From the NCBI RefSeq assembly GCF_000019965.1, contig NC_010571.1:992001-1056000 (forward strand): a stretch of DNA of 64,000 nt, read 5' to 3'. The position numbers were made by a program, and so were the translations under genes. A model generated the notes under the pieces. That model had not been told where the DNA came from and searched no databases. It worked only from the letters and a program-made list of their open reading frames with translations. Below are positions 49,709 to 61,722 of this stretch, piece by piece. Numbering within the stretch: position 1 is the stretch's first letter; each line of letters starts with the position of its first letter. The DNA comes from Opitutus terrae PB90-1. GTDB taxonomy: Bacteria; Verrucomicrobiota; Verrucomicrobiia; Opitutales; Opitutaceae.

Positions 49709-52700
49709 TTAGGGCGAGGGGTTGCTCACGATGCGGTCGGTCACGTCTTCGCCATCGTGTACCAGCCGCGCGCGGTTGTGCTGCGCGGGCAGCAACACGT
49801 TGTGAGACGTGGTTCCTGCCACGAACCGGACCGAACGCACGCCACCGGTGACGATGACGGCGCGGCCATTGGCCTGCTCGAGATTGCCGCCGGTGATCGC
49901 CGTGTCGAAAGAGGAACCGAGCGTCAGTACCGGCGTGGCGTCGTCGTGCGCGTCGATGTCGCCGACGAATACCGAGCCGACGAAAGCGACTTCGGGCGCA
50001 TGGATTCCCGTAAAACCCCGGGTGCCGAAGAAGCTGACGTTGCCGGCGCGCACGCTTCCGAAGAACGTGTTGCGGCTGAGAATGGCGAGGTAGGCGATGT
50101 CGGCGACACCGTCGTACTCGGTCGTGGGCTTGAACAGGCCTTGGTTCACCGCGGTGAGCGAACCGACGCTCAAGATCGTCACGTCGGTCGTTTCATCCGC
50201 ATCGGTGATGACGATCGCCGCGTGGCCCTTCATGTAGGCGACGTCCGGCTGGTTGTAGCGCGAAGCGACAGCGGGGCCTGATTCGCCCGTAAGCACCACG
50301 GTCAGCGTGCCCGCGCCGGAAAACTCCACCTGTACGATGTCGTCGTTCAAATCCACGAACGAGATGCGGCTGACCTGCCCGGGATCGGCGGTGATGCTCG
50401 CCACGCGCCCGCGCAGCAGCAGCTGGTCGTACGTATTGCCGTTCGGGTGCCGGATGTCGGGGCCTATCTCCTGCGCATCGCCGAAAAGTTTCAACCCGAG
50501 GAGCCCCAGTTTCGGCCCGACGATCACGGTCGGACTCGAGCGAACGCCGGTGTCGTTCGTCGCGGTCACGTGGTACAAGCCCGTGTCGGACAGACCGCCC
50601 GGGATCGTCAACGCGCTCGTCACACGATCGTGGCTGGGCGTCAGCGTCACCGGATGCACGGTATCGGCCAGCCCGTCGTGGTACCACGTCAACGCAGGCA
50701 GCGGATTGCCCGAGCCGATCCCGTAAAGGGTACTGAGTTGGCCTGGCAAAAACGACAAATTCGACGGCGCGTACTCGCCGAGGAATGCTGGCGCGGCCGG
50801 CGTGGTCGTAACGGCGAGCGCGATCGGCGCGGAGGTCACCGCTCCGTGCGCATTCGTGATCGTCACGGTGTAGTCGCCCGCGTCGGCTGGCCCGGTCGCA
50901 GCAACGGTGTACGACGCCTCGGTCGCGCCGACGATGGGGACGCCGTTCTTGCTCCATTGATAGGTGACGGGCAGAAGTCCGCCCGCAGTGACCGCCAGCG
51001 TGGCGCGGCCTCCCACCGAGAGCGCGCCCGAGGCGGAATTCGTGGAGGCAAGCACCTTGGGCACGGGATCGACGCTCGGGCTGGTCGGCTCCGTCCGCTG
51101 CAGCTGCACGAGGGTCTGATAGCCCGCGTTGTGATCGAGCGCCGTCAGCCGGCCATTCGCGCTCACCTCCACCGCCACGGGAAAATGCGAGTGCGGTATG
51201 TCCGCGCGCACGCGCGTCTCGGCCGGCGCGCCCACCGCGCGCAGCGCGTCGTACAGCACGCCGCCGACCTCGCGGGTGTGAAAGCGATCGGTTGGCCACA
51301 CGTCCCCACCCTCGTAACGATACTCACCGCGGCCGTTCTGGTCGTAGCGCACAAACGACAGCGTGTAAGGGATCGGACTGCCCCGCCGCGAACCGATCAC
51401 CACGACGCCGCCATCCGGCAGCGGCACGAGCGCCCGCATGATGTCGGGCAGCGCAATCTCGCGGATCTCGAACCCGGCGTCCTGCAGCCCGTCAGGCTTG
51501 TAACGATAGACGGTAAGCACCGGATCCTCCGGGATGCTCGGCGCGCGTGCGACGGCGAACACGGCGCCTTCGGGCGCGACAGCGAACACGCCGCGCCCGT
51601 CGCTGTCGTCGGTGTTTGAGGGCACGACCACGGGAGTGTAGGTGGGGTCCGGATTGCCATCCGGATCGAACCGGTCGAGCCGGTACATCGTAGTCGTAGC
51701 GGTGAGGGCGTGCAGTCGATAGATTCGGCCGGCCGCGTCGACCTGGACTTCGCCGGTAGCCAGTGGGAAGCCAGCGTCCAGCGAGCCGTCGGCGTTGAAC
51801 CGCCGCAGGGGACCCGCTTCGCCGCCGGGAGCGAACGTGGCGAGCACCTTGCCGGCGGGTTGCACGACCAGTGAGACCACGCTCGAGCCGTTTTGCGCGG
51901 GCGCAAACGTCGGGTCGAGCGAGCCGTCCGCATTCAGCCGCACGAACCCGTTGCTGACCTGCGTGCCGTTAACATGGTCGACGTCGCCGGCGATCACGAG
52001 CTTGCCGTCGGGCTGCCGCGCGAACGCGGTGATCCGTGCCTGCGCGCGGACCACCGGCTGGTAAGCAGCGTCGATGGTGCCGTCGGCGAGCACGTGCGTG
52101 ATCCAGTGATCCGCCGCCGCACGGGCATGGGTCAGCGGCGAGGCGAAGTAGAACGTGCCATCGGCCGCGAGCACGGGCATCGTGACACTGACCTCCGTGA
52201 TGAGAGCGAAGCTGCTGTCGATCGTGCCGTCGGGATTCAGTCGCTTCACGCCGGGCGCAGGTCCGTCATACGCGTGGTAGATGATCTTCCCGTCGCTTTG
52301 TTGCGGACCGAAAATTACCTGTTCGCCGAGCACCGCCGAATGGAAGCTCGGATCGTGGGAGCCATCGGCATTCACGCGCAGGATGCCGCGCGGCAGCCCG
52401 GGGCCGAGGATCGAGGTATTGGCATAGCTCACCAACATCCGACCATCGCTCTGCGGGTAGACACGTTGCGGATCTGCGTGGTCGGGGAACGGTACCGCGT
52501 TGGCGTTGAGCGTCGGGTCCACGGTTCCGTCCGCGAGCAGCCGCGCGAGCCCGTGGAGATTCGCAGCGCCGAGATTCACAAACGAGCCCGCCACCATGAA
52601 CCGGCCGTCAGCGAGCACCGTCACGCTGAAGTGCTCCCACTCGCCCGCGAGACTCGTTTCCTGAAACGGTGACGTGAACGAACTCGAGACCGTGCCGTCG

Positions 52701-53239
52701 GCGTTCAGCACGCACAGCCGGGTCTGCCGGAGGCCGTCGACGGTGAGAAAATTGCCCGTCAGGAGGATGCGGTCGCCGGCCTGCAGCTGGGCGCTGATCG
52801 CGATCGTTCCCGGGTCAAAGATGGGGGAATGAAACGTGGCGTCGCTCGAACCGTCGGGCCTGAGCCGCACCAGCGTACTGGCGGCGGTCGTGCCTTCCGT
52901 GCGCGTGTGCCAGACAAGCACCCGACCATCAGCGTAAGCGACGAGTGGCCAGTGAATCCCGTCCGGCGCCAACACAAAGGAGTCGTCCACCGATCCGTCG
53001 GCGTTCAGCCGCGTCAGTCCGGAAGGACGCAGCACACCGTTGAGGTAGGTTGTGACCGGGTCCTGCGAGACGATGAGCTTGCCGCTCGGCGTGGCGAGCA
53101 ACTGCACGGACCGCGGCCGGGTGGAGCTTTCGAGCACCGCAGTGAACGCGGGATCGGTCTCCCAGTACTCCGCCCGGGCCGGGGCCAGCCCCAACGCCAG
53201 CAACACCACCACCAGGACCATGCGGCTCCGGGAGTTCAT
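49709..53239 (-). CDS. giant secreted delta-60 repeat protein with Ig-like domains and shared C-terminal domain (copy A)
   Basis: This 1176-aa exported protein has a signal peptide at residues 1-23 (MVLVVVLLALGLAPARA). Residues about 25-600 are a chain of at least ten delta-60 (DUF5122) beta-propeller repeats, recognisable by units such as LNADGSVDDSF, RPDGSSDATF, LADGTVDPTL and NADGSLDPTF. Then come Ig-like modules (YQWSKNGVPIVGATEASYTV, DAGDYTVTITNAHG) and a C-terminal domain of about 270 residues also found in the next two genes: LLLRGRVASITADPGQV, FVDLNDDIVQVEFSGAGTL, then YDGVADIAYLAILS, ending SNPSP. The domain is rich in short repeated strands, like a beta-helix. It probably acts at the cell surface or outside; its function is unknown. 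Confidence 0.88.
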   Translation of the reverse strand: MNSRSRMVLVVVLLALGLAPARAEYWETDPAFTAVLESSTRPRSVQLLATPSGKLIVSQDPVTTYLNGVLRPSGLTRLNADGSVDDSFVLAPDGIHWPLVAYADGRVLVWHTRTEGTTAASTLVRLRPDGSSDATFHSPIFDPGTIAISAQLQAGDRILLTGNFLTVDGLRQTRLCVLNADGTVSSSFTSPFQETSLAGEWEHFSVTVLADGRFMVAGSFVNLGAANLHGLARLLADGTVDPTLNANAVPFPDHADPQRVYPQSDGRMLVSYANTSILGPGLPRGILRVNADGSHDPSFHSAVLGEQVIFGPQQSDGKIIYHAYDGPAPGVKRLNPDGTIDSSFALITEVSVTMPVLAADGTFYFASPLTHARAAADHWITHVLADGTIDAAYQPVVRAQARITAFARQPDGKLVIAGDVDHVNGTQVSNGFVRLNADGSLDPTFAPAQNGSSVVSLVVQPAGKVLATFAPGGEAGPLRRFNADGSLDAGFPLATGEVQVDAAGRIYRLHALTATTTMYRLDRFDPDGNPDPTYTPVVVPSNTDDSDGRGVFAVAPEGAVFAVARAPSIPEDPVLTVYRYKPDGLQDAGFEIREIALPDIMRALVPLPDGGVVVIGSRRGSPIPYTLSFVRYDQNGRGEYRYEGGDVWPTDRFHTREVGGVLYDALRAVGAPAETRVRADIPHSHFPVAVEVSANGRLTALDHNAGYQTLVQLQRTEPTSPSVDPVPKVLASTNSASGALSVGGRATLAVTAGGLLPVTYQWSKNGVPIVGATEASYTVAATGPADAGDYTVTITNAHGAVTSAPIALAVTTTPAAPAFLGEYAPSNLSFLPGQLSTLYGIGSGNPLPALTWYHDGLADTVHPVTLTPSHDRVTSALTIPGGLSDTGLYHVTATNDTGVRSSPTVIVGPKLGLLGLKLFGDAQEIGPDIRHPNGNTYDQLLLRGRVASITADPGQVSRISFVDLNDDIVQVEFSGAGTLTVVLTGESGPAVASRYNQPDVAYMKGHAAIVITDADETTDVTILSVGSLTAVNQGLFKPTTEYDGVADIAYLAILSRNTFFGSVRAGNVSFFGTRGFTGIHAPEVAFVGSVFVGDIDAHDDATPVLTLGSSFDTAITGGNLEQANGRAVIVTGGVRSVRFVAGTTSHNVLLPAQHNRARLVHDGEDVTDRIVSNPSP

Positions 53240-53269
53240 CGCTCGATCTCTTTCAGTAATACGACAGCT

Positions 53270-56200
53270 TCAGGGCGAGGGGTTCACCACAATCTGATCG
53301 GTGACGTCCACGCCGTCCTGTTCGAGCCGGGCGTGGTTGCGCTGCGCCGGCAGCAGCGTGCCCTGCGAGGTGGTGCCATCCACGAACCGCAGGCGCGTCA
53401 GCCCGCTCACCCGCACGGCGCGACCACCAGGCTGCTCCAGGTCGCCACCGCAGATGAGCGTCTCGCCGTCGGCTCCCCCCAGCAGGAGAACAGGTGTTGC
53501 CGTGAAGTCCTCGATGTTACCGAGGTAGACTGGACCAGTGAAACGAACTCCGGGTGCATAAACACCCGTGAAGCCCCGCGCGTCGAAGAAGTTCACGTTG
53601 GCGCAGCGGAGACTGCCAAATTTCCCGCTCCGGCTGAGAACCGCAACGAAAGCGATGTCCGCCACGCCGTCATACGTGACGTCGCTTCGGAACAGCGACT
53701 GATTGTACGCGTTGGCACGTCCCACGCTGAAAACGGAGAGGTTCGTCGTCTCGTCTGCTCCGGTCACCACAATCCCGGCGTGGCAGCGTACGTAGCTGAC
53801 GCCTGGCTGCACATAGTATTCGGGTGCCCGCGGCGCGTTTGCGTCCCGAATACTTGGGACTAGCGACACGGTGCCCGCGCCGGAAAGCTCCACTTGCACG
53901 ATATCGTGATCCAGATCGACGAACGAGAGCCGGGTGACCTGCCCGGGATCCGCGGTGAACGCCGCCGCAGGGCCGCGCAGCAGCAGCTGGTCGATGGTGC
54001 GGCCACTCGGATGCAGCGTGTCGGGTCCGACCTCGGTCGCATCGCCGACGAGTTTTCTGGTCGAGGCTAGTCCCACCAACATCGGCGACGAGGTAACGGT
54101 GCCATGGTCGTTAGTCGCGACGATGGTGTAGAGGCCCGTGTCCGCCGGGTCGGCTTTGATGTAGATGTCGCGTTGTCGGCTGGTGGGACCCAGATCGTAG
54201 TCTTCGATCGGCGGTACGAAATAGTTCACGACCGGAGCAGGGACGATCCGTCCGTTATGCTCCCAGTGCACCGTTGGCACCGGGTTGCCGGTTGCGGTGG
54301 CGATGAAGGAACGGGCGTCGGTCGTGAGGACCAGCTCTGCGGGCGGTTGCGGGGAAGGCACGCGAGCCGGTGGCAGCACATCGTAATCGACCACGGTCAC
54401 CGTCGGTGCGGCGGGCGTGGTGTTGTAGGTGACGCCGGCCGGCGCTGAAGTGGCAGAGCCGTAGGCGTTGGTCGCAGTAACCGTGTAGCTCCCCGCACCC
54501 GCCGCCGACGTCGTCACCTTGAAGTGACTGGCCGTGGCGCCGGCGATCGGCACGCCGTCTTTGTGCCATTGCAGCGTTTGCGGAAGCGCACCGCCACTGC
54601 TCGCATAGAGCACCATCTCGCCGCCCATGTTCAGCACACCACCGTCTGGGATTGAAGGCTCCGGCACGGCGTCGAACGTGGGCGTGCCTGCGGAAGTCTT
54701 CGTGTAGATCGAGAATCCGTCGACGTTCGTCACGAGTTTCCCATCTGCACCCACATCGAGCTTCAAGGCCGAAGATTCGAGCCGCAGTTCGATCGCGTGG
54801 TGACTCTGCGCGGCCGCTCCCGACTCGCGCAGGAGATCGTGAACCACGCCCGCGACCTCGAGACCGTGAGCTGGCAGCAGCGGCGACGGATTCGCGCCGA
54901 GTGGCTCGCCGTAGAACAGAAAATCCACCGCGCCCACGGCGGTGTAGCGGAAGTAGCTGAGGGTGAACTGGCCGGATTGCGACGTAGCTCCGATCGCCAG
55001 CAGCCGACCGTCGGGCAGCGGAACCAGCGCGAGAAGGTTGTCGGGAAGAGGCCTGGCTTCGCTCGAAAAACTCGTGTCGGCCGATCCATCGGCGAGATAG
55101 CGCTTCAGCGCGCTTACCGGCGAGTCGCCGGGGGTGCGTTGAGCTGTCACTGCCATGCTGCCGTCGGGCCAAACCGCGAAGATCGAACTGGTCGCCGGCA
55201 CGGCCGGGAAGGTGGCATCGAGCACCCCGTCCGCGGAGTAGCGAATGATCTGGAATCCACTCGCCGTGGCCTCGGCGGCGTAGATCCGGCCAGTACTGTT
55301 GAATGCGATCTGGGAGGCATAGCGCTCCAGCTTGTGGAACGTCGGATCGCGACGGCCGTCGGCATTCAGCCGCACGACTCCCGCGAACCAGTCGCCTGGG
55401 AATCCCGGCTGGAACAGTTCGATGATGGGTTTGCCGCTGCTGGGCTGAACCCAGACACGCTCAGCGTATTCGTAGGGAGAGAGTTCGGGCCCAAAGGAAG
55501 GGTCGATTGAGCCGTCGGGCCGCAACTCAGCCATCTCCCACGCGACGGGCTGGCCATTCACATGGTCGAAATCCCCGGCGAGAAACAACGTGCCGTCGGA
55601 CGCGCGTGCGAAGGTACTGATGTCGGCCGGCACCGTCAGGTGCGGCCGGTAACTCTCGTCGATCGTGCCATCGCTGCGGATTCGGGAGATGCGGATTCCC
55701 GCCGCCTGTCGCGGCGCCATGAGCGCCGAGGCCACGTAGAACCAGCCGTCGTCTCCCAAGATCGGGCGGACGACGGCGTATGGCGGGGCCTTTTCCGTTG
55801 CGACGACGAAGCTCTCGTCGGCTGAACCGTCCACATTCAGCCGGCGTAGCTCACGGCGCGACGTGCCCGTTGGTTCGACCAAATAGAGGAGTTTGCCGTC
55901 AGTTTGAAGTGGCCCAAATGACGAGACAGCGCCGAACGGCGGAATAAAAGTCGGGTCGCGCGAGCCGTCGGGGTTGAGCGCCCATAGCGACCCGCTCGCG
56001 ACGAGCAGGCGTTCACCCGCCTGGAACACGTCGGTGACCGATCCGAGCAGCAGCACTCCCGCGAGGGTGAACGTATCGTCAATGCTGCCGTCAGCAGCCA
56101 GCCGGGCGAGATAGCCGAGCCGGTTCGGGCCAAGATCTTTGAAGTCGCCGTAGACGATGATCTTCCCATCCGGGAGGGGCAATGCCGAGACCAGCCATGC

Positions 56201-56800
56201 AGGTGTGGCGTTGAAGGGCGACTGAAACCCCGCCCACACCGTTCCGTCGGCGTTCAGCACGCAGACCTTGGGCTGCAGAACGCCATTGAGATGAGTGAAC
56301 GTACCCGAAACGAGGATGCGATCGCCGGACAGCCGGTGCGCGGTTTGCACAAAACCGGCATCCAACGCGATGGTCTCGAAGGTGCTGTCGATTGCGCCGG
56401 TCGAGGTGAGCCGCAGAAGCTCATGGCGGATGCTGAGGTCAGTCGACAACGTCGATTGCACCAGCACGCGTCCGTCCGGGTAGGCCAAGACGGCCTTAAG
56501 CGGAGCGTCGGCGGGGGCGTTGAACGCTGCATCGACCGATCCGTCGGTGTTCAGCCGCCGAAGGGGCGCGCCCGAGACGAAGAGCATTCCCCCCGGCGCA
56601 GCGGCGATGTCCGCCGACTGATACGCGGCGGCGCTCTCGACGACCGGGGTTGGTACTACGCTCCAATACTGCGTGTGCGCTGTGGCAACTAACGACCACA
56701 GCCCCACACCCGTGGCGAGCCAACTGCGGCAGCGCCGCCGGGACTGGCGGGGGGCACGCACTCCGATCCCCGAGAGCACGGATCGCCAACCGGAGTTCAT
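53270..56800 (-). CDS. giant secreted delta-60 repeat protein with Ig-like domains and shared C-terminal domain (copy B)
   Basis: It is 1176 aa, exactly the length of copy A, with the same plan: an N-terminal hydrophobic export signal (LATGVGLWSLVATAHT), delta-60 repeats (LNTDGSVDAAF, LNADGTVWAGF, LAADGSIDDTF, LNPDGSRDPTF), Ig-like units (LQWHKDGVPIAGATASHFKV) and the shared C-terminal domain (LLLRGPAAAFTADPGQV, FVDLDHDIVQVELSGAGTV, YDGVADIAFVAVLS, final VVNPSP). The ATG at 56800 is chosen for the export signal; the frame is open to 57205, but that part lies over copy C and is Arg-rich. Copy A starts 30 bases downstream, so the two form an operon. Similarity points to tandem duplication with strong divergence. 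Confidence 0.88.
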   Translation of the reverse strand: MNSGWRSVLSGIGVRAPRQSRRRCRSWLATGVGLWSLVATAHTQYWSVVPTPVVESAAAYQSADIAAAPGGMLFVSGAPLRRLNTDGSVDAAFNAPADAPLKAVLAYPDGRVLVQSTLSTDLSIRHELLRLTSTGAIDSTFETIALDAGFVQTAHRLSGDRILVSGTFTHLNGVLQPKVCVLNADGTVWAGFQSPFNATPAWLVSALPLPDGKIIVYGDFKDLGPNRLGYLARLAADGSIDDTFTLAGVLLLGSVTDVFQAGERLLVASGSLWALNPDGSRDPTFIPPFGAVSSFGPLQTDGKLLYLVEPTGTSRRELRRLNVDGSADESFVVATEKAPPYAVVRPILGDDGWFYVASALMAPRQAAGIRISRIRSDGTIDESYRPHLTVPADISTFARASDGTLFLAGDFDHVNGQPVAWEMAELRPDGSIDPSFGPELSPYEYAERVWVQPSSGKPIIELFQPGFPGDWFAGVVRLNADGRRDPTFHKLERYASQIAFNSTGRIYAAEATASGFQIIRYSADGVLDATFPAVPATSSIFAVWPDGSMAVTAQRTPGDSPVSALKRYLADGSADTSFSSEARPLPDNLLALVPLPDGRLLAIGATSQSGQFTLSYFRYTAVGAVDFLFYGEPLGANPSPLLPAHGLEVAGVVHDLLRESGAAAQSHHAIELRLESSALKLDVGADGKLVTNVDGFSIYTKTSAGTPTFDAVPEPSIPDGGVLNMGGEMVLYASSGGALPQTLQWHKDGVPIAGATASHFKVTTSAAGAGSYTVTATNAYGSATSAPAGVTYNTTPAAPTVTVVDYDVLPPARVPSPQPPAELVLTTDARSFIATATGNPVPTVHWEHNGRIVPAPVVNYFVPPIEDYDLGPTSRQRDIYIKADPADTGLYTIVATNDHGTVTSSPMLVGLASTRKLVGDATEVGPDTLHPSGRTIDQLLLRGPAAAFTADPGQVTRLSFVDLDHDIVQVELSGAGTVSLVPSIRDANAPRAPEYYVQPGVSYVRCHAGIVVTGADETTNLSVFSVGRANAYNQSLFRSDVTYDGVADIAFVAVLSRSGKFGSLRCANVNFFDARGFTGVYAPGVRFTGPVYLGNIEDFTATPVLLLGGADGETLICGGDLEQPGGRAVRVSGLTRLRFVDGTTSQGTLLPAQRNHARLEQDGVDVTDQIVVNPSP

Positions 56801-56898
56801 GATCCCGGTGTACACGATCGCGCGGGCAGGCCAAGCCTTTTGCCAGAATTTGGCCGTTAGCCTTGAGGCAGTCGTTGGGGCGAGCCGCGGCAACTCCG

Positions 56899-59800
56899 CT
56901 ACGGGCCGGGGTTGACGACGATCGCGGCGGTCACGTCCACGCCCGCTTGTTCGAGTCGGGCCTTGTTTTGTTGCGCGGGGAACAACATCCCGTGCGATGT
57001 CGTGCCGGCAGCGAACTTGAGCCGGGTGAGGCCGCTGACTTGCACGGGCCGATTGTTCGACTGTGCCAAATCGCCGCCATTGATGAGGGTCTCGCCGCCC
57101 GCGGAGCCGAGCATCAGGACGGCGGATGCATCGTCGAATGCATTGATATCGCCGACATAGACCGGCCCGTTGAAATGCACCCCCGGCGCATAGACGCCGG
57201 TCCATCCGCGCGTGGCGAAAAAGTTGGCGTTGGCGCAGCGCAGTCCGCCGAACTTGCCGTCGTTGCTCAGAATCGCGATGTAAGCCAGATCGGCCAGCCC
57301 ATCGTAGCTCACGTCGTCGCGGAACAGTCCCTGATTGACTGCGTTTGCCCGGCCCACGCTGAAGACAGACACGTGGGTGGTCTCGTTGGCGCCGGCGATG
57401 ACGATTCCCGCATGCCCCTTCATGTAGCGAATGCCTGGTTGGATATAGTTCAACGGCTCAGCGGGGCCCGACGAGCCGGTGAGCACGAGCGAAAGCGTGC
57501 CGGCCCCGGACAACTCCACCTGCACGATGTCGTTGTCCAGATCCACGTAAGACATGCGCGCGACCTGCCCGGCGTCCGCCGAGATGCTCGCCGCTACACC
57601 ATCCAGGCGGATCTGATCGAAGACACGACCGTTTGCGTGGACGATGTTCGTCCCGATCTCAACGCCGGCGCCGGCGACCTTGGTGGTGATTGCCAGGCCG
57701 ACGATCGCGACTGTTGTTGAGGCGCTCGATTTGAAATCCGTTGCCGCTGCGGCATACAAACCGACCTCACTGGGTTGCACCGCTTCCAGCACCAACAACG
57801 GGCCCGTGGTTCCGGGGAGGACGGCCCCGTTGCGGATCCACTGGTAGGCGACGTCGCCAGCGTTGCCGAATTCCGTCGCCGAAAGTGCCACGGGGCTGCC
57901 GGGAGCCGCAACTTGCGACTGCGGCTGGGTGAGAATACTCATGCGGCCGGTGCTCGAGCCCGCCACCGAAAGATCCTCGTGGAGCACCGTGAAGATCGGG
58001 GTTCCTTGCGCCGTGGTGATCGCCACCAGTCGCGCATCGGAGAGCCGCAACAAGCGCACCGGCCGGCCGGAAACGGCCGTGCGCCGGGTCTGTAGGTAGC
58101 TCGTGCGCGCCCACCGCTGGATCTCGGTTCGTCCGCCCAGCTCGCGCATCGTGTAGAGCGCGCCGGGGAGCCAGACGGCATCGTTCACGTCATTGGCCAG
58201 CGCGCCAATCGGTCGCACTGAGAGATCAACGATCCGCCCGTTGCCGGTGACGGCCAAGTTGTTTTCGGCGTCGATGCGCAACGGCGGATACGCCGTGCCA
58301 TATCCACCCGCATTGGGGTAGTTGGTTGAAATCGCTCCACTGGGGGCGACGGTAACATACGTGGTTCCGTCGGACCGGCTGCCGGCAAAAAGCCGGCCCG
58401 TGGCCGGATGCCATGCGAGGTAATCGCCATAGATGGTCTGCCATGCCACGTGACGAATGGACCCATCGGTCGCCAGCATGAGATGCCCCCCACCCGTCCG
58501 GACGACCGGCATGTCGTTCAGGTCAAGCACCTGGGCGATGGGAGCGGGAGAGTTTCCAATCTGCACCTCGCCCACGGTGCTCGCCTGCAGCGACAGCGCG
58601 GCGAGGCGACCGTTGGGATAGCCGAGCAGGACACGCGACTGGCCCGGCTGACTGAAGGCAGTGAGCGGGGCGGCTGGAAGCGGGATGGTCGGGAGGAAGG
58701 ACTGGGTCACGGCGGACCATCGCACGAAGCTCTGCAGGGAACGACTGAAGACGTTGACGACGCCTTCACTGCCCACGAAGGCGTCGTCCACGGAATAGCG
58801 TCCGGTGGGCAGATTAGTCGTGCCGCGTGCTTGCAAGGCGGCAAAGGCCGTACGCGAGATCTTTTTTGGAGTAGAGGACGAGCCACTCGAAGTGGTATCG
58901 AATACATACGCGATGTCTCCGCGGATGAAGAGGCGCAGACCGTAAACTCCGGCATCGGCGCGGGCGGTTTCAAAGAACGTCGATCGGTCCACCATCGTGA
59001 GTGTCCGGCCGCGCAAACACACCGGAGTTCCATCCGCAAAGAAGCCCAGGTCGGAAAACGAATCTCCCAGGCAGCGCAGGTAGCTCATGTCCGCCGTACG
59101 GCTGACCACGCCGGAAGAGGAGGCCACCCACTGCTCGTCCGGTGAAACGTAGACGCGCAAGCCGACTGGCAGTGTTCCGCCGCTGGATGGCTTCTTCACC
59201 TCAGTGATCGCGCCATCTTCGGCGACGGCGTAACACTCTGGTTGCCCGCTGGCGTAGATGTATCCGGACGCGAAGAGCTTCCCGCTCTTGGCGGCCCACA
59301 CGACATTACCGAGGTCATTGAGCGCGACCACGCTGCCGATCTCGAGCGAGCTTCGGCGGACCTTCCCGTAACCGGCCAGTCCGATGGTGTAGTAATAGAC
59401 CCAGTCGCCGACTGTGAAGAGATGGGCGATGTCGGTCGGGGCATTGGTGATGACGGTTTCGCTGCCCAGATCCAGGGGGCGCCGGGTCAGAATGCGGCCA
59501 TATGCGATGTAGATGCCGTCCGGTGCCGGGACGAACGCGGTCGGGGCCACTGCTTGCGTCAAAGAGACCGATGGCAGCCATCTCTCCTGCTTCAGGTCAT
59601 AACGATCGATTCGCGACGGTGCCGCCGTTAGGAAATAGACAATGTCTCCAGCGGCGACGGCATCGACCCACGGCGTCGTGCGCTGGATCGCATGCTCCTC
59701 CTGGCCAAGCACGATCGGAGGCGAAGTGACCACGGCAGCGGCGTTAGAGATGGTAACAGTATAGACGCCGTAATCCGTGGGCGCAACATGACCAAACTCC

Positions 59801-61722
59801 AGAGCCGAATAGACGCCCCCTGCGACCGGCTGGCCGTCTTTTGACCACTGATATGTTAGAGGCCCGGCGCTCTTGATGCCCCAGACGTCGAGTCGAGCGC
59901 TGTCCCCCGGGGACGCGTAGATCCGGCTGGCAGGCCAATGCGTGATACTCGGAGGCGCCGGGGGGAGGACCGTGAGCAGCGCCGGCGCGCTGATGACGGT
60001 ACCGGCTTCGCCCGTGATCGCGACGGAATAGTAGCCGGCATCCGATGCGGTCACCGCGTTGATGCCGTAGGAGCTGTAGATCGCGCCAGAGATCGGCACG
60101 CCATTCTTCCGCCACACCATCGTGCGGTCTCCGGCCCCGGCGGAGGTGGCGGCAACCGAGAAGTCCACTTGGGCTCCCGCGGAGACCTGCTGCGACACCG
60201 GCTGCGTCTGTATCTCCGGAAGCACAGCCGGGTTTACGACAATCTTAGCAGTCGCACTAGTGATCGAGCCCCCGGCATTCGTGACCACAACCGTGTAGTC
60301 GCCGCTGTCGGCGGGCAGGGCGGTGTAGATCCCGAAATAGGACTGATTGGCCCCCGGAATATCGGCTCCGTTTTTCCGCCACTGGAAGCGAAGCGGCGTG
60401 GACCCCGTTACCGTCACCGAGAGGTTTACGCTGGCCTTGTAGTTCACCGTGGCCGCCTCAGGCGGGCGCGTGATGGAGGGACGGATGGCGGGACTGACGG
60501 CGATCGCGGCGCTGTTGCTGTCGCACGGGCCCGCGGGATTGGTGACGCGCACGGTGTAACTGCCGGCATCGATTTGCCGCAACGCCGTGAGCCGCAGACT
60601 GCTCAAGGTCGCGTCGGATATCGGAACACCGTCTTTGAACCATTGAAAACTGAACGGCGGGCTGCCGGCCACCTCGACACTCAGGTAGGCGTCCTGGCCC
60701 TCCACGATTGCGACACCCTGCGGCTGACGAACGAACGACACCGGGGTCGGCGGATTCACAACCAACGCCGCCTCCCGGCTGGTGACGGAGCCGGCCGGAT
60801 TGGTGACGACAACGGAATAGTTACCGGCATCCTCCAGCCTGGTCGTGGCAATCGAGAAGGAAGATTGGGTGGCGCCGTCGATCGGGAGTCCCTCTTTGCG
60901 CCACTGGTAGGTGTAGGGATAGGAACCGTTGGTGATGTAGACGGAAAAGGTGACCGATCCTCCCGCGGTCACCGTGGCCGGATAGGGCGCAGAGCTGGAC
61001 AGCACCAGCGGCACCGCCGCATTGACCGTAAGCGAGGCATCCGCGCTGGTTGCCGAGCCGAGGGAGTTTGTGATGACCACCGAATATGTCCCCGCATCGG
61101 TGGCCGTGAGAGCGGCGAATTGCAGTGTCTCACCGGTTGCACCCGGGATGGGCGCTCCATTCTTGCGCCACTCGAACGATCGGGGATAACTGCCAGTCGC
61201 GCGGCAGCCGAATGAGGCTGGCTGTCCAACATACCTGACGAGACTCCGTGGTGATTCGAGGATGTAGGGCGCCGCTGCCGGTTTGACGGATAGAGACGTG
61301 CTCGCAGTGCTGGACCCGCCGGGATTCGTCACCGTGACAGTGTAGGAGCCGGCATCCATCGCGCCCGCGGCCGCAATCACATGAGAAGCGGCATTGACGC
61401 CCGCGAGGATCGCGTCGCCCTTGCGCCATTCGTACGACTGCCCCTCGCCGGAGCCGCTAAATACCACAGTCAAAACCACCCGCTGGCCGAGTTCGACTTC
61501 CCCACCGCCGCTGATCCCCTGAAGCACGGGAGCGGCGGCCAAAGCCTGGACCAAACCGTGATTGCCTGTCGCCCGCGCTGAGGACGGCGGCGAAACGCTC
61601 GGGACCTGTTCCGAACCAGTAGTCAACGCGGTTGGTGCCGCGGCCACGACGTGCACCCCAAGACAGCTGATGGCCAAGGCTAGGACGTTGATCGCCGCTC
61701 CCAGGTCGGCACGCGTAGGCAT
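56899..61722 (-). CDS. giant secreted protein with Ig-like domains, propeller-like middle and shared C-terminal domain (copy C)
   Basis: This 1607-aa exported protein has an N-terminal hydrophobic signal (INVLALAISCLGVHVVAAAP). About seven Ig-like domains follow (residues about 60-690), each with a YxWRKNG..I.GA unit and a DAGxYTVxxTN unit, for example FEWRKNGAPIPGATGETL and DAGTYSVVITNSLG. A middle section (about 690-1230) has repeated short beta units like a propeller (GDIVYFLTAAPSRIDRYDL, GDWVYYYTIGLAGYGKVRR). One more Ig-like domain (about 1245-1330) precedes the C-terminal domain shared with copies A and B, ending VVNPGP. The ATG at 61722 has GGAG at a suitable distance. It heads the likely three-gene operon. 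Confidence 0.88.
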   Translation of the reverse strand: MPTRADLGAAINVLALAISCLGVHVVAAAPTALTTGSEQVPSVSPPSSARATGNHGLVQALAAAPVLQGISGGGEVELGQRVVLTVVFSGSGEGQSYEWRKGDAILAGVNAASHVIAAAGAMDAGSYTVTVTNPGGSSTASTSLSVKPAAAPYILESPRSLVRYVGQPASFGCRATGSYPRSFEWRKNGAPIPGATGETLQFAALTATDAGTYSVVITNSLGSATSADASLTVNAAVPLVLSSSAPYPATVTAGGSVTFSVYITNGSYPYTYQWRKEGLPIDGATQSSFSIATTRLEDAGNYSVVVTNPAGSVTSREAALVVNPPTPVSFVRQPQGVAIVEGQDAYLSVEVAGSPPFSFQWFKDGVPISDATLSSLRLTALRQIDAGSYTVRVTNPAGPCDSNSAAIAVSPAIRPSITRPPEAATVNYKASVNLSVTVTGSTPLRFQWRKNGADIPGANQSYFGIYTALPADSGDYTVVVTNAGGSITSATAKIVVNPAVLPEIQTQPVSQQVSAGAQVDFSVAATSAGAGDRTMVWRKNGVPISGAIYSSYGINAVTASDAGYYSVAITGEAGTVISAPALLTVLPPAPPSITHWPASRIYASPGDSARLDVWGIKSAGPLTYQWSKDGQPVAGGVYSALEFGHVAPTDYGVYTVTISNAAAVVTSPPIVLGQEEHAIQRTTPWVDAVAAGDIVYFLTAAPSRIDRYDLKQERWLPSVSLTQAVAPTAFVPAPDGIYIAYGRILTRRPLDLGSETVITNAPTDIAHLFTVGDWVYYYTIGLAGYGKVRRSSLEIGSVVALNDLGNVVWAAKSGKLFASGYIYASGQPECYAVAEDGAITEVKKPSSGGTLPVGLRVYVSPDEQWVASSSGVVSRTADMSYLRCLGDSFSDLGFFADGTPVCLRGRTLTMVDRSTFFETARADAGVYGLRLFIRGDIAYVFDTTSSGSSSTPKKISRTAFAALQARGTTNLPTGRYSVDDAFVGSEGVVNVFSRSLQSFVRWSAVTQSFLPTIPLPAAPLTAFSQPGQSRVLLGYPNGRLAALSLQASTVGEVQIGNSPAPIAQVLDLNDMPVVRTGGGHLMLATDGSIRHVAWQTIYGDYLAWHPATGRLFAGSRSDGTTYVTVAPSGAISTNYPNAGGYGTAYPPLRIDAENNLAVTGNGRIVDLSVRPIGALANDVNDAVWLPGALYTMRELGGRTEIQRWARTSYLQTRRTAVSGRPVRLLRLSDARLVAITTAQGTPIFTVLHEDLSVAGSSTGRMSILTQPQSQVAAPGSPVALSATEFGNAGDVAYQWIRNGAVLPGTTGPLLVLEAVQPSEVGLYAAAATDFKSSASTTVAIVGLAITTKVAGAGVEIGTNIVHANGRVFDQIRLDGVAASISADAGQVARMSYVDLDNDIVQVELSGAGTLSLVLTGSSGPAEPLNYIQPGIRYMKGHAGIVIAGANETTHVSVFSVGRANAVNQGLFRDDVSYDGLADLAYIAILSNDGKFGGLRCANANFFATRGWTGVYAPGVHFNGPVYVGDINAFDDASAVLMLGSAGGETLINGGDLAQSNNRPVQVSGLTRLKFAAGTTSHGMLFPAQQNKARLEQAGVDVTAAIVVNPGP

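Follow-up and report, generated by a model that had tools for sequence, protein, structure and literature searches.

The stretch of DNA analysed here, the window, comprises 64,000 nucleotides of the Opitutus terrae PB90-1 genome (contig NC_010571.1, positions 992,001 to 1,056,000) and contains three adjacent genes whose large secreted products end in the same domain of about 265 residues, labelled D in the following. Genes A (49709-53239), B (53270-56800) and C (56899-61722) and all their features are located on the minus strand, with intergenic gaps of 30 and 98 bases. Gene A encodes 1176 residues, composed of a signal peptide, a passenger of DUF5122/delta-60 beta-propeller repeats (51081-53167), two Ig-like domains and D, which forms the extreme C terminus (271 residues, 49712-50524). 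The Ig-like domain immediately N-terminal of D in A is of the I-set type (residues 825-901, 50537-50767). Gene B is a tandem relative of A with the same architecture and likewise encodes 1176 residues when started at MNSGWRS; a longer open reading frame reaching 57205 overlaps C. Its D comprises 275 residues (53273-54097) and is preceded by an Ig-like domain at approximately 54100-54316. Gene C encodes 1607 residues with a signal peptide, Ig-like domains (8 Ig_3 stretches in total), a long unassigned region and a D of 274 residues (56902-57723), which again follows an Ig-like domain, at approximately 57718-58005. A promoter scan of the locus yielded no promoter-like site and 11 terminator-like sites against 7.7 expected.

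A sequence-only reading of the window had proposed that the three neighbouring genes share an unrecognised C-terminal domain, and BLASTP comparison of the C termini bears this out: over 294 residues C is 54% identical to A (E 4e-85) and 60% identical to B (E 7e-104). A and B are homologous over their full length (40% over 1222 columns), and each contains DUF5122/delta-60 repeats and two Ig_3 stretches in Pfam and NCBIfam scans. The sole match of the passenger of A besides itself at E<=1e-40 is B, in a set of 32 genomes that includes 17 D-negative ones, hand-picked among those without a match in the family draw described below. The marks DPGQV and ADET, given in the earlier reading as common to the three copies, are present in A and B, but C reads DAGQV and ANET. 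The proposed NP(S/G)P end holds for A, B and C but not for the family at large, where the last residues of many copies read DVTxxIVVNP or vary on it. Neither the three proteins nor the isolated D of A gave a credible match for D in Pfam or NCBIfam. The D of A had a best E of 0.12 against PHROGs and nothing better than E 0.15 against PDB chains (phmmer), and a search of 85 D copies against Pfam hit scattered unrelated families with a best E of 0.004. No description of D was found among titles and abstract openings in PubMed Central, a scope that leaves out most subscription journals and all preprints. As D is unnamed in Pfam and NCBIfam, the group is invisible in annotation.

The domain is not confined to the three proteins, a possibility that the sequence-only reading had held open: the O. 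terrae genome encodes 40 D copies in 39 proteins (48 pieces in the first search), with a median pairwise identity of 53%. In 36 of these proteins D is followed by 0-7 residues only. With a home-made profile, applied to 124 stretches of which 34 had served as its seed, an Ig-like domain was found directly N-terminal of D in 34/39 proteins of this genome and in 78/85 relatives; the Pfam Ig_3 family alone matches 25 of the 39. A hydrophobic N-terminal stretch is seen in 35/39 by a crude rule, and the start chosen for the protein at locus L035 looks wrong (L and G numbers denote loci and genomes; G000 is O. terrae PB90-1). After removal of D and the Ig-like domain, 34 passengers of at least 60 residues remain, which fall into 24 clusters. 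Cargo was identified with additional one-by-one scans of 20 of the 39 proteins. Glycoside-hydrolase (GH) and carbohydrate-binding module (CBM) families are represented by GH10, GH16, GH26, GH43, GH44, GH62 and CBM4_9. Enzymes that do not act on glycans include a subtilase (S8), a C10 peptidase with inhibitor, an S41 peptidase, a GDSL lipase and a cyclophilin, and further matches comprise beta-lactamase-like enzymes and RCC1, NHL, SBBP and delta-60 propellers. These counts, together with the negative Pfam and NCBIfam scans, agree with the earlier description of D as an unrecognised C-terminal module on otherwise different secreted proteins.

A profile search among Verrucomicrobiota, proposed in the same reading, retrieved relatives mostly within the Opitutaceae. 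Matches were found in 15/150 genomes of the family, spread over 8/49 genera, in 4/387 genomes drawn from the phylum, all of the same family, and in 7/372 drawn from the order, of which one (G510) belongs to another family; the three draws overlap, each includes O. terrae, and their per-genome matches are lower bounds (6-17 candidates scored). With all candidates scored, the 15 family genomes contain 40, 35, 15, 9, 9, 7, 7, 4, 4, 4, 3, 3, 2, 2 and 1 matches, some of them fragments. No match was found in G003, which belongs to the same genus as O. terrae, or in G006 and G048, whose genera are shared with D-positive genomes. A search of a contig collection with two short patterns, which distant relatives may escape, gave 114 stretches encoding a D relative. 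Of these, the 80 best, corresponding to 79 loci, were retained, all from records titled Verrucomicrobiota. D was not found in the plasmid records searched. In a tree of 122 D copies the genomes are interspersed, the copies of O. terrae requiring 19 changes compared with 33.8 after shuffling. A shared neighbour-gene partner of the D loci was looked for and not seen; those recurrent neighbours that could be read stem for the most part from conserved gene order around a single type of D protein, close to genes that we take to be GspF-, GspE- and GspD-like.

Structure prediction, also suggested by the sequence-only reading, gave a confident, mostly stranded model for the D of C (85 sequences, pLDDT 96.1, pTM 0.93). 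Foldseek found no PDB structure at E<=0.001 (best E 0.74), and a comparison with the viral structures of BFVD was equally without a hit at that threshold (best E 0.038). With VIA-align, middling scores were obtained for the lyase RbmB, a right-handed beta-helix (Z 5.9, 4.0 Å over 161 aligned residues), and for the putative adhesin 3ljy (Z 5.2, 4.0 Å over 148 aligned residues), and two-partner secretion domains scored about 4. The modelled domain is without a confident structural relative, by which novelty of the fold is not proven. The D copies are acidic, with a median net charge of -11.

The position of D raises the question whether it is a true C-terminal export or sorting signal for an outer-membrane machine, comparable to the C-terminal domains (CTDs) of type IX secretion and possibly feeding a type II system. 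Such a role would fit the extreme C-terminal position, which besides 36/39 proteins of O. terrae is found in 69/83 readable relatives among the best 80 of the 114 stretches (at most 15 residues after D), and the conserved DVTxxIVVNP-like end. Like type IX CTDs, D is carried C-terminally by diverse Sec-exported enzymes, its cargo spectrum presumably resembles that of type IX secretion, and a particular type of D protein is located close to genes that we take to be GspF-like (L027, L073, L081 and L116). On the other hand, a pattern search of the 39 proteins found no PEP, LPXTG, terminal KxxxK or PxGxYVV-type motif, and their last six residues contain no lysine or arginine in 29 cases and one in 10. 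No strongly hydrophobic C-terminal end was found either, the best 14-residue hydropathy within the last 25 residues of the 39 proteins being 1.58; a 19-residue stretch just above 1.6 occurs in 3/40 D copies. GlyGly-CTERM sequences have the same build as PEP-CTERM sequences. The latter are described as a motif followed by a transmembrane helix and a basic tail (PMC1569441). D shares with the PEP-CTERM/exosortase system the multicopy, sporadic distribution of a C-terminal feature, but it has no PEP in the last 40 residues (0/39) and no basic tail. Exosortase was rejected as a partner of D, as it does not co-vary with D among the 32 genomes; it is present in 29 of them regardless of D and was not detected in the D-positive genomes G054 and G022. 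SprA_N, searched as the mark of the type IX translocon, gave no match in the 32 genomes, although the positive control was silent as well. The type IX CTD of RgpB is an Ig-like domain of 72 residues, and the motifs of CTDs are PxGxYVV and KxxxK (PMC5445135); D is much larger, lacks both motifs and, as shown below, is also placed N-terminally. Furthermore, the protein L020 of O. terrae consists of a signal peptide and D with little else (288 residues), an arrangement that speaks against an export signal, as do the N-terminal copies. We therefore consider an export signal unlikely.

In 12 of the 16 D-positive genomes (G000, G007, G012, G023, G054, G056, G104, G121, G122, G138, G139 and G510), D is also found N-terminally on a giant protein, after an [LIV]ExLExRQLLA motif, in some cases in a frame cut by the contig end. 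We take this motif to be LEPR-XLL. The C-terminal part of the O. terrae protein L151 (frame of 1103 residues) matches the Caulobacter S-layer protein RsaA (6p5t, E 3.9e-23), and the G121 protein (L220) matches it over about 570 residues (6p5t, E 2.1e-38; 5n8p positions 463-1025, E 3.7e-30), in both cases outside D. A gene for an ABC ATPase with a Wzt C-terminal domain, confirmed with Pfam, lies near the N-terminal-D gene in G000, G007, G121 and G104, G007 and G104 being one genus. With Pfam confirmation for a selection of genes, Wzt-type ATPase, OEP/TolC and M50-HlyD genes were each counted beside 4 of the 12 N-terminal-D genes and glycosyltransferase genes beside 5, compared with 2, 0, 0 and 1 at the 106 loci of other D copies, which are mostly shorter, so that the comparison favours the N-terminal-D loci. 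None of these genes is seen beside the N-terminal-D gene in G122, G138 and G139, and the contig of G510 could hardly show any.

The candidate S-layer locus of O. terrae itself lies outside the window (L215, G000:C1:5135000-5154900) and contains genes for the RsaA-like N-terminal-D protein, a Wzt-type ABC ATPase, a glycosyltransferase, a LuxR-type protein, M50-HlyD, OEP/TolC and HlyD. The open frame of L151 spans G000:C1:5141758-5145066 and that of the Wzt-type gene G000:C1:5145364-5146749.

Of the roles named in the sequence-only reading, namely sorting, secretion and surface anchoring, the last fits best. Anchoring is favoured over a strictly C-terminal export signal because D is also N-terminal on giant proteins and because L020 consists of a signal peptide plus D. 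We put it at about an even chance that D is a cell-surface anchor for exported proteins, acting most likely via a surface polysaccharide or an S-layer. In such a mechanism D would be an acidic module of almost entirely beta structure, able to fold on its own, that holds exported proteins on the cell exterior by binding a cell-surface polysaccharide (lipopolysaccharide O-antigen or similar) or an S-layer built on that polysaccharide. Enzymes and repeat proteins would carry it C-terminally, usually behind an Ig-like spacer, and the S-layer-like giant protein would carry it N-terminally, where RsaA has its O-antigen-binding domain. We infer the surface location, the ligand and a common target for N- and C-terminal copies. 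The family itself, its mostly terminal position, the diversity of cargo, the tail swaps described below, the homology to RsaA found in two proteins with N-terminal D, and the genes beside such proteins were computed directly.

The proposed arrangement resembles that of SLH domains, with one anchor common to the coat protein and the displayed exoenzymes. SLH domains are N-terminal on S-layer proteins, with motifs of about 55 residues acting in threes (PMC12175726), and C-terminal on a GH10 xylanase (PMC6556019). D is placed alike, on S-layer-like proteins at the N terminus and on exoenzymes, a GH10 protein included, at the C terminus; the S-layer identity behind this likeness rests on RsaA homology in two of six N-terminal-D proteins. 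The SLH motifs acting in threes differ from D, a single beta domain of about 265 residues, and no SLH family was matched when A, B, C, the D region and 85 D copies were compared with Pfam. The ligands of SLH are secondary cell-wall polymers; the ligand proposed for D is O-antigen or a similar surface polysaccharide, or an S-layer built on it. In RsaA, O-antigen is bound by residues 1-249, which form an alpha-helical N-terminal domain, and the lattice is built by residues 250-1026 (PMC6978808). D resembles that domain in being N-terminal on the RsaA-like proteins L151 and that of G121, with Wzt and glycosyltransferase genes near both, but D itself (that of A, phmmer) did not match RsaA up to E 10. 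By the sequence tests run, D falls outside SLH, PEP-CTERM and the RsaA N-terminal domain, and it lacks the type IX CTD motifs.

A more specific version, which we regard as possible but doubtful, would make D a new Gram-negative counterpart of SLH, a polysaccharide-binding anchor that arose N-terminally on an RsaA-like S-layer protein and spread from there by duplication to some 35 repeat proteins and exoenzymes of O. terrae. Export and tethering of the S-layer protein would be the task of its own locus, with HlyD/TolC and Wzt O-antigen functions, and the result would be a cell coat decorated with a set of plant-polymer-degrading enzymes. If anchoring by D is correct, a little-studied diderm phylum would possess a modular system of its own for presenting repeat proteins as well as enzymes on the cell, comparable to what SLH does for Gram-positives and type IX CTDs do for Bacteroidota, and D would mark 39 candidate surface proteins and one candidate S-layer protein in O. 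terrae.

The C-terminal place of D can be taken by other modules. The GH10 domain of an O. terrae D protein has 10 homologues of 56-66% identity in 8 family genomes without a D match, and a profile search found D in none of them. Instead, three end in T2, a tandem 137-residue module, and six in T3, a short module; in one (L159, whose frame runs past the fetched stretch) none of the three was seen, the T2 and T3 profiles being derived from these same tails and T3 uniting two sets only 24-28% alike. A second example is the 149-residue N terminus of the O. terrae D protein L027, which has matches in 19/32 genomes. Among 30 fetched loci, it is combined with a D tail in 11 and a T2 tail in 12, with no readable tail in the remaining 7, and both G007 and G081 have one D-tailed and one T2-tailed locus. 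Because homologous N termini carry D, T2 or T3, D appears as one filler of an exchangeable slot, which in other, homologous proteins holds modules unrelated to D in sequence. Homology of D to T2 or T3 was ruled out (hhalign probability under 1%). There is no simple either-or of T2 and D across genomes, because T2 counts vary among both D-bearing and D-free genomes. T2 matches number 18 in O. terrae, 2 in G023 (35 D), at least 116-120 in G139 and G122 (9 and 7 D), and 64-101 or more in the D-free G006, G020 and G013, with none in 7 other D-free genomes; for G013, G122 and G139, with 129 scored, the counts are minimum values. T3 matches occur in 15/32 genomes.

The module T2 is near NCBIfam NF038127, whose cut-off was passed by one tail of the two scanned (43.8 bits), and none of four T2 and T3 tails matched Pfam at E<=0.001. 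The T2 model (8 sequences, pLDDT 87.7) is similar to LipL32 (VIA Z 9.4) and to pre-peptidase C-terminal and collagen-binding domains (Z 8.5 each), with a best Foldseek E of 0.003. The comparison of these nearest relatives of T2 with D concerns position, T2 standing C-terminally where D stands in homologous proteins; as stated, T2 is not homologous to D. Exchange of D, T2 and T3 would be a means of sorting Opitutaceae exoproteins by their tail. The T2 and T3 modules are represented by L156, L157, L161 and L164 (alignments A4 and A5).

The likeness of T2 to collagen-binding domains is one of the points in favour of a further possibility, that D serves to bind an external ligand such as a plant polysaccharide, a mineral or a biofilm matrix, similar to a CBM or an adhesin. 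Many cargoes are glycoside hydrolases, and the weak structural likeness of D to beta-helix polysaccharide lyases and to the putative adhesin 3ljy points in the same direction. However, the cargoes also include cyclophilin, peptidases, a lipase and RCC1, NHL and delta-60 propellers, D is found on S-layer-like proteins, and Pfam scans gave no CBM family match for D; we consider an external ligand quite improbable. The compact, confidently predicted fold and the replacement of D by unrelated tails would also suit a purely structural role, as an end-cap or for dimerisation, in which D protects secreted proteins from proteolysis and does no targeting. Such a cap is very unlikely in our judgement, as it leaves unexplained both the presence of 40 copies in O. 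terrae with none in G003 of the same genus and the use of D on S-layer-like proteins.

Several observations weigh against surface anchoring by D. The support is computational throughout, with binding and localisation of D predicted, and the limits attached to the neighbour counts above belong here as well. Four of the six N-terminal-D proteins tested had no PDB match, which leaves RsaA homology in just two, and none of the D matches, all of them read, in the draft genomes G022, G039, G077 and G081, four of the 16 D-positive ones, is N-terminal. The alpha-helical N-terminal domain of RsaA contrasts with the beta structure of D, making the likeness an analogy of position and not homology. The position of D is not uniform either: internal copies are found in O. 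terrae in L019 (529 residues after D) and as the second copy of L150, and singly in G012 (152 residues after), G056 (148 residues after) and G022. Among the 83 readable relatives, 14 have more than 15 residues after D, 8 of them forming one homologous group with a long extra C-terminal part. Lastly, the likeness of T2 to pre-peptidase C-terminal and collagen-binding domains could mean substrate binding. D is an unnamed, lineage-restricted module for which a link to the S-layer is plausible.

Some of the D proteins with unusual arrangements were inspected individually. L019 (6599-10294) has the order GH62, Ig and D, followed by the 529-residue region, which is without a Pfam match and reads like a glycoside hydrolase. 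L150 (1017-11705; G000:C1:352016-362704) encodes 3563 residues: behind the signal peptide come two D copies, and after these 23 DUF5122 stretches and He_PIG/Ig domains. The frame that comes immediately after it encodes a further D protein. L061, L066, L070, L071, L093, L096, L113 and L114 encode related proteins with D in the first half and some 700-800 residues thereafter, a part that by eye we take to be CHRD/DUF1800-like. In G510, two D copies are N-terminal; the other four are followed by 5-15 further residues and lack a recognised Ig, and one of them covers part of D only.

Conserved synteny is seen at L027, L073, L081, L111, L116 and L117, where the N terminus of the D protein resembles RRLxWxxLPxxLLIALLQRTPVVR and genes for a response regulator, a histidine kinase and an outer-membrane-like protein are close by. 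At L027, L073, L081 and L116 the presumed GspF-like genes come next on the opposite strand, GspD, GspE and GspF being our provisional names. Finally, a subgroup of D has a mid-domain insertion of about 20-25 residues (approximately FDPTGAYNI...NNPANNGSPLF); its members are L039, L043, L044:12124-13002, L027, L044:1753-2643, L041, L016:4833-5741 and L017:9573-10442.

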